Source: Brevundimonas vancanneytii
GTDB lineage: Bacteria > Pseudomonadota > Alphaproteobacteria > Caulobacterales > Caulobacteraceae
Length of the DNA: 63,689 nt
NCBI GenBank assembly: GCA_945861515.1
Contig: CAMAVA010000002.1
Coordinates: 1 to 63,689, forward strand
Reading direction: 5' to 3'
In this document: piece by piece, positions 37,335 to 38,472 of the stretch
Layout of the letters: every line of letters begins with the position of its first letter
Numbering within the stretch: the first letter of the stretch is position 1
Notes under the pieces: model-generated
What the model was told of the DNA's origin: nothing
What the model saw: only the letters and a program-made list of their open reading frames with translations
Database searches by the model: none
Translations under genes and position numbers: made by a program

Positions 37335-37838
37335 CTAAGCAGCGCGAATTCCGCTGAAGGTGGTCCGTCGTTCCGACTGCAGACCGATGACGGCGTCATA
37401 GCCCAGAATCATGTCGACCCGGGCGCCGTCCGACGCCAGGGGGAGCCGTAGCCACAGGGTTGAAACATGGGCGGCGCCGCGCCAGGCTAGGCTGTGGGTG
37501 CCAACGCGTGGCTTGCGGTCATTGACCAGGGCGTCCAGTTCCCCGCGCCAGTAGTCGCAGGCCGGGCCGCTATAGACATCCGAAAGCTTCAGGCCGGTGA
37601 TTTCTCGGCCATAGACGGGAAACAAGCCTGTTCCGGCCAGGCGAAGCCGATAGTCGAGGGTGGGGCCATCCCGCAGAACGTCGATCAGGCTGACGGTCGG
37701 TAACAGTCGCTTGAACGCTTCAGGACTGATGTCGGCGCGGCCGGGAAGTCGCCCGGACTGGCGCAGGGCGGCCCAGTAGCTGAACAGCTCTTCGTGGGCG
37801 CGGGCAGCTATCGCCGAGGCGCCCAGTTGCGCAACCAT
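37335..37838 (-). CDS. PAS domain (PAS_5-like) protein
   Basis: SPEAFKRLLPTVSLIDVL...YRLRLAGTGLFPVYGREITGLKLSDVY. ATG at 37838 with AAGGA upstream. The ORF-track start at 37856 is TTG. Confidence 0.8.
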   Translation of the reverse strand: MVAQLGASAIAARAHEELFSYWAALRQSGRLPGRADISPEAFKRLLPTVSLIDVLRDGPTLDYRLRLAGTGLFPVYGREITGLKLSDVYSGPACDYWRGELDALVNDRKPRVGTHSLAWRGAAHVSTLWLRLPLASDGARVDMILGYDAVIGLQSERRTTFSGIRAA

Positions 37839-37992
37839 CTCCGGAATCCTTAACAACCCCTTGGAATCACCTGTGATTCACTATCGCTTAACCGATGAAT
37901 CGGGAGCAAGCGGAAAATGATTTTTCGGTTAAAGATTCTCCATATGAGTCAATATTGAATCGACGACCAGCAGTTGACCGGAATATCGGAGT

Positions 37993-38027
37993 CAAAATAG
38001 CCCGCCGACGAGTCTCGCCGGCGGGCC
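37993..38027 (-). terminator. Probable rho-independent terminator of mucR
   Basis: On the minus strand: GCCCGCCGGCGAGACTCGTCGGCGGGCTATTTT, a GC hairpin followed by a T run. Confidence 0.75.
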
Positions 38028-38055
38028 TTCAGAATCGAGGGTAGCCTGCTCGAGT

Positions 38056-38472
38056 CTAGCGGCGCTTCTTGGCCTGGCGACCGCCCTGCCCCAGACCCAT
38101 CTGCTTGGCCAGGTCGGAGCGCGCCTTGGCATAGTTGGGCGCAACCATGGGATAGTCCTTGGCCAGGCCCCACTTGGCCCGATAGTCCTCCGGGCTCATG
38201 TCGTACTTGGTGCGCAGGTGGCGCTTCAGCGACTTGAACTTGCGGCCATCTTCAAGGCAGATGAGGAAGTCCGGGGTGATTGATTTCTTGACCGGAACGG
38301 CCGGTTCTTTCGGAACGATCTCGACCGTTTCGACGCCGGTGACCACACCGCTCAGCGCCTTGTGGACCGACTGGATCAGATTCGGAATTTCGCTCGCTGC
38401 AACTGTGTTATTACCCAGATAGGCCGACACAATATAGGTGGTCATTTCGATGATGGCGGATTTGTCTTCCAT
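38056..38472 (-). CDS. mucR: MucR/Ros family transcriptional regulator
   Basis: IIEMTTYIVSAYLGNNTVAASEIPNLIQSVHKAL; FLICLEDGRKFKSLKRHLRTKYDMSPEDYRAKWGLAKDYPMVAPNYAKARSDLAKQMGLGQ. ATG at 38472. Confidence 0.95.
   Translation of the reverse strand: MEDKSAIIEMTTYIVSAYLGNNTVAASEIPNLIQSVHKALSGVVTGVETVEIVPKEPAVPVKKSITPDFLICLEDGRKFKSLKRHLRTKYDMSPEDYRAKWGLAKDYPMVAPNYAKARSDLAKQMGLGQGGRQAKKRR

Follow-up and report, generated by a model that had tools for sequence, protein, structure and literature searches.

Why should the short spacer between mucR and a PAS_5 gene hold so many copies of GANTC, the site methylated by CcrM? The window, by which is meant the whole stretch of 63,689 nucleotides of Brevundimonas vancanneytii DNA that was analysed, contains 135 GANTC as against 287 ± 15 in shuffled sequence, and this overall depletion of the motif makes the island in the spacer more conspicuous. 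A direct site scan of the window returned 11 GANTC in 213 bp, at the very starts that the earlier note had read by eye, and the island is the top value in each sliding-window size tried. Dinucleotide shuffling of the spacer, repeated 20,000 times, gave at most seven sites and never eight or more. Of the 15 further palindromic pentamers built like GANTC, each occurs at most five times in the island.

Across the 3.42-Mb genome, exhaustive triplet pattern searches with gaps of at most 30 bp, which do not cover clusters spaced wholly at more than 30 bp, yielded 31 GANTC clusters, the island being the largest (11 sites in 213 bp) and the runner-up holding six sites in 113 bp. The island is the densest GANTC cluster of the genome, and density elsewhere in this listing, a comparison that the earlier note had proposed, is lower. 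On the shuffles and the ranking together, a chance origin was rejected.

Other groupings of the motif were seen along the way. The second-densest cluster in the window genome (L140, G000:C22:20421-20533) apparently lies in coding sequence. Upstream of an amidohydrolase-like gene there is a conserved GANTC triple (L139:1339-1372, G000:C256:1938-1971), which G018, G003 and G005 carry in almost the same form; it is a candidate GcrA/CcrM promoter. G018 also carries six copies of GAATCAGAACCCGGAATCCATGGGAATC, a repeated element with three GANTCs (for example G018:C1 2107269-2107296).

Genes and promoter elements of the spacer

The PAS_5 gene beside the island is mopJ, since its product scores 262 bits against the NCBIfam equivalog NF051868 (CellCycRegMopJ), for which the cut-off is 200; the earlier note had the domain right but missed the identity of the gene. 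mucR and mopJ are both minus-strand genes arranged in tandem, with mopJ downstream, as in C. vibrioides, and the spacer is therefore made up of the mucR terminator and the mopJ promoter region, PmopJ. The features are listed below, with GANTC sites entered without strand and their distances counted from the mopJ ATG.

37335-37838, minus strand: mopJ, PAS_5 single-domain cell-cycle regulator, 167 aa plus stop (Pfam PAS_5, 1.5e-15; NCBIfam NF051868); start codon ATG at 37838-37836
37844-37848: GANTC s1, -10, in the mopJ Shine-Dalgarno region (site scan; parsimony)
37864-37868: GANTC s2, -30, in the mopJ leader (site scan; spacing; parsimony)
37875-37879: GANTC s3, -41, at the predicted transcription start (site scan; conservation; parsimony)
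37880-37885, minus strand: predicted -10 element GATAGT (sequence; column conservation), with an inferred start site
37897-37901: GANTC s4, -63, in the predicted -35/-10 spacer (site scan; conservation; parsimony)
37904-37909, minus strand: predicted -35 element TTGCTC, 18 bp upstream of GATAGT (sequence)
37934-37938: GANTC s5, -100, retained in some Caulobacter (site scan; conservation)
37946-37950: GANTC s6, -112, TTGACTC on the minus strand, retained in many Caulobacter
37957-37961: accessory GANTC, -123 (site scan)
37989-37993: accessory GANTC, -155 (site scan)
37999-38027, minus strand: intrinsic terminator of mucR, 13-bp stem plus T tail
38010-38014: accessory GANTC, -176, spanning stem and loop of the mucR terminator (site scan)
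38032-38036: accessory GANTC, -198 (site scan)
38052-38056: accessory GANTC, -218, TAGACTC touching the mucR stop codon (site scan)
38056-38472, minus strand: mucR, ROS/MUCR regulator, 138 aa plus stop (Pfam PF05443, 4.8e-50)

The earlier placement of the outermost sites was borne out: the first does fall in the ribosome-binding region of the PAS_5 gene, the last touches the mucR stop codon, and the site scan likewise found the upstream side of mucR free of GANTC. The site assigned to the mucR terminator loop is indeed a GACTC inside the terminator, but it spans both stem and loop. An Rfam P17 match over the terminator was rejected as sub-threshold (19.8 bits against a cut-off of 45).

Read on the minus strand, the conserved order is TTGCYC, GATTC, GATAGT; in the window the spacer measures 18 bp. 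This layout puts the -62/63 site between the predicted -35 and -10 elements and the predicted start near the -41 site. The PmopJ core, as sequence and conservation show it, consists of a -35-like TTGCYC, the GATTC of s4 and a -10-like GATAGT, followed by s3, s2 and s1; a sigma70 consensus scan found no promoter. In the window s4 reads CGATTCA, which falls short of the full GcrA-activating motif YGAKTCK, and among relatives a G directly follows s4 in 92 of 107 (CGATTCG).

Beside s4 there is an inverted repeat, TTAACCGATGAATC / GATTTTTCGGTTAA (37888-37901 and 37919-37932), containing CtrA-like TTAA half-sites. The arrangement TTG-N5-GANTC occurs twice on the minus strand of PmopJ, at 37844-37856 (the -10 site, TTGTTAAGGANTC) and at 37897-37909 (the -63 site), and the TTG of the copy adjoining the mopJ start codon is nearly invariant, with two to three changes per column.

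The window genome encodes both CcrM (N6_N4_Mtase plus RAMA) and GcrA. It gives a single MucR match, as against two to six in most Caulobacter relatives, which may reflect gene loss or an incomplete assembly.

Core and accessory sites among relatives

Relatives of mopJ were gathered by a single-protein scan. In the family survey, a clear mopJ orthologue is absent from most genomes of genera g12 and g30. Caulobacteraceae share a GANTC core at -10, -30, -40/41 and -62/63 from the mopJ ATG. Among 87 distinct spacers (the named and genus sets), the motif is present at s1 in 80, at s2 in 83, at s3 in 75 and at s4 (about -62) in 81, and the core sites are mostly retained in many further genera of the family. 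The distance from s1 to s2 is exactly 20 bp in 95 of 95 cases. An array of CcrM-type methylation sites in a regulatory region, as the earlier note had supposed, is thus real and conserved in relatives, in a genome that has ccrM.

Parsimony on the mucR tree (105-107 rows) gives, for the successive letters of s1, 2 changes at G, 5 at A, 13 at N, 5 at T and 4 at C. A free N between a held GA and a held TC suggests that selection at -10 acts for the methylation site. The -62 site, whose fixed letters show 3-6 changes on the same tree as against 10-28 for most flanking columns, also fits such selection, though -10 gives the clearest signal. The -30 site cannot be told apart from its context, since its N and the adjoining CAA are conserved to the same degree as the site itself. 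The ATA columns of the predicted -10 element are conserved family-wide (3-5 changes per column); the TTGC of the -35 element is conserved in most genera and weak in the L020 clade.

mucR adjoins mopJ in most relatives, but in L017, L113, L125 and L130 the two are separated by about 0.6-1.3 kb more DNA. The first three of these keep every site no farther than about 310 bp from mopJ, with none close to mucR, and L130 has seven sites, one of them close to mucR. Because the sites stay with mopJ when extra DNA parts it from mucR, they belong to the mopJ promoter and not to mucR. Related sites also occur in mucR-PAS_5 spacers from other families of the order (L025 has six GANTC against 0.6 expected), although the PAS proteins of those families score below the MopJ cut-off.

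The number of sites beyond the core varies widely. The locus of C. vibrioides DSM 9893 (L010/L111) has seven sites, at -10, -30, -40, -62, -98, -110 and -201, and the window lineage has about half as many again. Sites outside the core, near -98/100 and -110/112, are retained by many Caulobacter. In the window clade (L001, which is the window, with L058, L002, L003, L059 and L061) the count is 9-12 sites; L148 has nine and its genus mate L149 six, while L152/L129 have 12 and L153/L109 five. Parsimony assigns four changes to the state of nine or more sites, on a tree in which many branches are weakly supported, and the extra upstream sites (9-12 in total) appear to have been gained more than once, separately in other lineages. 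Sites in the terminator loop recur with different N bases (GACTC, GATTC, GAGTC), and L001, L058, L148, L152 and L129 all have TAGACTC at the stop codon of mucR. More than 80 nt from the ATG, 100 spacers together hold 203 GANTC against 59 expected, or 144 against 50 when the expanded clades are left out.

GcrA/CcrM gating and its alternatives

In C. crescentus, PmopJ carries CcrM-type m6A at GANTC and a GcrA ChIP-seq peak; GcrA depletion leads to loss of PmopJ-lacZ, GcrA being needed for full activity; the promoter is induced by (p)ppGpp, and MopJ favours CtrA re-accumulation (PMC4432633). Control of the mopJ promoter by GcrA and CcrM is therefore already known in the model species, and this part of the question is settled by the orthology of mopJ. 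By analogy with that promoter, the island is very probably PmopJ in the guise of a cell-cycle regulator promoter built to be gated by GcrA and CcrM, and we infer methylation and GcrA binding at the window island on the same grounds. The idea of CcrM gating in the earlier note was right, but GcrA as the known reader and the published GcrA/CcrM status of PmopJ were missed.

The MucR-centred readings of that note find no support. According to these, MucR would bind the island and keep its GANTCs unmethylated, and would so control mucR or mopJ. Several C. crescentus promoters bearing 1-4 GANTCs are indeed shielded from CcrM by MucR1/2 (PMC5172544), and mucR is the usual neighbour. However, PmopJ of C. 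crescentus is m6A-marked and GcrA-bound, the sites go with mopJ where the genes are separated, and the upstream side of mucR has none. For reading the published list of hypomethylated GANTCs, we take CCNA_00998/00999 to be mucR2/mopJ. Among the top 50 hypomethylated GANTCs of C. crescentus, no site bears the label mucR2/mopJ (PMC5172544 Table 1); since the orthologue is also methylated, occlusion by MucR is weakened and must be considered very unlikely. Replication timing was a further suggestion: a phased array might be coated after passage of the fork by a hemimethylation-binding protein, in the manner of SeqA at E. coli oriC. The spacing in the window does come close to whole helical turns (for 10.5 bp the vector strength is 0.71, with p about 0.001), as it does in L148 (p 0.001), L061 (p 0.003) and L002 (p 0.009), and s4 and s2 lie 30-34 bp apart in 90 cases out of 100 and otherwise 39-43 bp apart, as if one helical turn had been added. 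Yet phasing at 10.5 bp is not significant in L152 and L129 (p 0.07-0.14), which equal the window in density, nor in L058, L010 and L020. Common ancestry of the core inflates such signals, so that phasing is a lead and not a result, and its absence from the equally dense L152 and L129 leaves it only a possibility. The array is, moreover, tied to the promoter of a single gene, and we know of no SeqA equivalent for GANTC, both of which count against sequestration and make it very improbable indeed.

Action at the level of RNA, with GAAUC/GAUUC pairing in the mopJ leader controlling translation, draws on the GAATCAC-AG-GTGATTC that s3 and s2 make up in the window and on the overlap of s1 with the ribosome-binding region. 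Against this, s3 is GATTC in 20 of the 87 spacers and s2 is GATTC in 82, so that the middle bases could not pair in most of those 20; the N of s1 varies without a matching change in s2, the greater part of the sites precede the predicted start, and no Rfam match reaches threshold. Pairing between the sites was rejected because the middle bases are unpaired in many relatives, and we regard control through RNA as improbable in the extreme. Passive accumulation, in which the core alone matters and the extras reflect neutral drift in a lower-GC spacer, fares somewhat better but is still unlikely. The rapid turnover of accessory sites, and the relatives that manage with five or six sites only, agree with drift, whereas the upstream excess, the repeated gains to nine or more sites, the terminator-loop sites that change their N base yet remain GANTC, and the lack of enrichment of other palindromic pentamers all oppose it.

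Proposed working of the array and known systems

For the preferred reading, a GcrA/CcrM-gated PmopJ, a cycle can be proposed from C. crescentus. GcrA forms a stable complex with sigma70-RNA polymerase and stimulates open complexes at methylated promoters (review PMC7403470). CcrM would methylate the island sites late in S phase, and GcrA, carried by sigma70-RNA polymerase, would then bind them, with the strongest binding where both strands carry the mark. The bound GcrA-polymerase would drive mopJ transcription in S phase, MopJ would then assist CtrA build-up, and replication would reset the array by rendering it hemimethylated. The five extra upstream sites, on the hypothesis that seems most likely, would provide a higher local load of GcrA-polymerase or a sharper response to methylation state; the accessory sites may thus constitute a loading array for GcrA-RNA polymerase. 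A broader proposal, which is offered tentatively and is more likely wrong than right, is that Caulobacteraceae have time and again covered PmopJ with a dense m6A array, in part phased to the helix, as an antenna for GcrA-RNA polymerase, such that mopJ output is steep and cooperative in methylation state and the MopJ-CtrA feedback depends for its timing or gain on the length of the array.

The array of sites on this strongly conserved regulatory element is unusually large and recurrently expanded. Most studied methylation-controlled promoters of Caulobacter have one or two GANTCs, and of 96 cell-cycle start sites with GANTC, only 11 had a second one or more inside 50 bp (PMC4287350). In PmopJ, nature supplies a series of about 3 to 12 sites on a single conserved core with repeated gains, and the effects of site number, position and helical phase are therefore directly testable.

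A GANTC between -35 and -10 marks promoters that are activated at 40-60 min, although the response to GcrA/CcrM is limited to some GANTC promoters (PMC4287350). One GcrA target is ctrA P1 of C. crescentus, with a GANTC at -28/-29 (PMC4287350), where GcrA protects -35 to +7 when the promoter is fully methylated (PMC3667746). In the window genome, ctrA was identified by the CtrA equivalog (408 bits), and its promoter (L138, G000:C40:6813-6885) has four GANTC in 73 bp and one nearer the gene. The s4 motif TTGCYCCCGATTC recurs there, and the promoter carries TTGCCCCCGATTC, a layout common to mopJ, so that the two genes are linked by a shared TTG-N5-GATTC arrangement. ctrA P1 resembles PmopJ in having TTGCYCCCGATTC with a GANTC directly behind the -35 element, which in PmopJ is a predicted one, and more GANTCs around it, but differs in that it has fewer sites, is one among several ctrA promoters, and places its CtrA half-site (TTAA) at a different distance from the GANTC.

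The MucR-occluded hypomethylated promoters, such as CCNA_00169 (PMC5172544), likewise combine multiple GANTCs per promoter region with the presence of the MucR family, yet their sites are unmethylated under bound MucR, unlike the m6A-marked and GcrA-bound PmopJ of C. crescentus. That same PmopJ (Sanselicio et al. 2015, PMC4432633) shares with the island locus the gene, the tandem mucR-mopJ order and the positions of the core GANTCs; the difference lies in the seven sites of C. vibrioides as against eleven in the island, where the extras extend through the mucR terminator as far as the stop codon of mucR.
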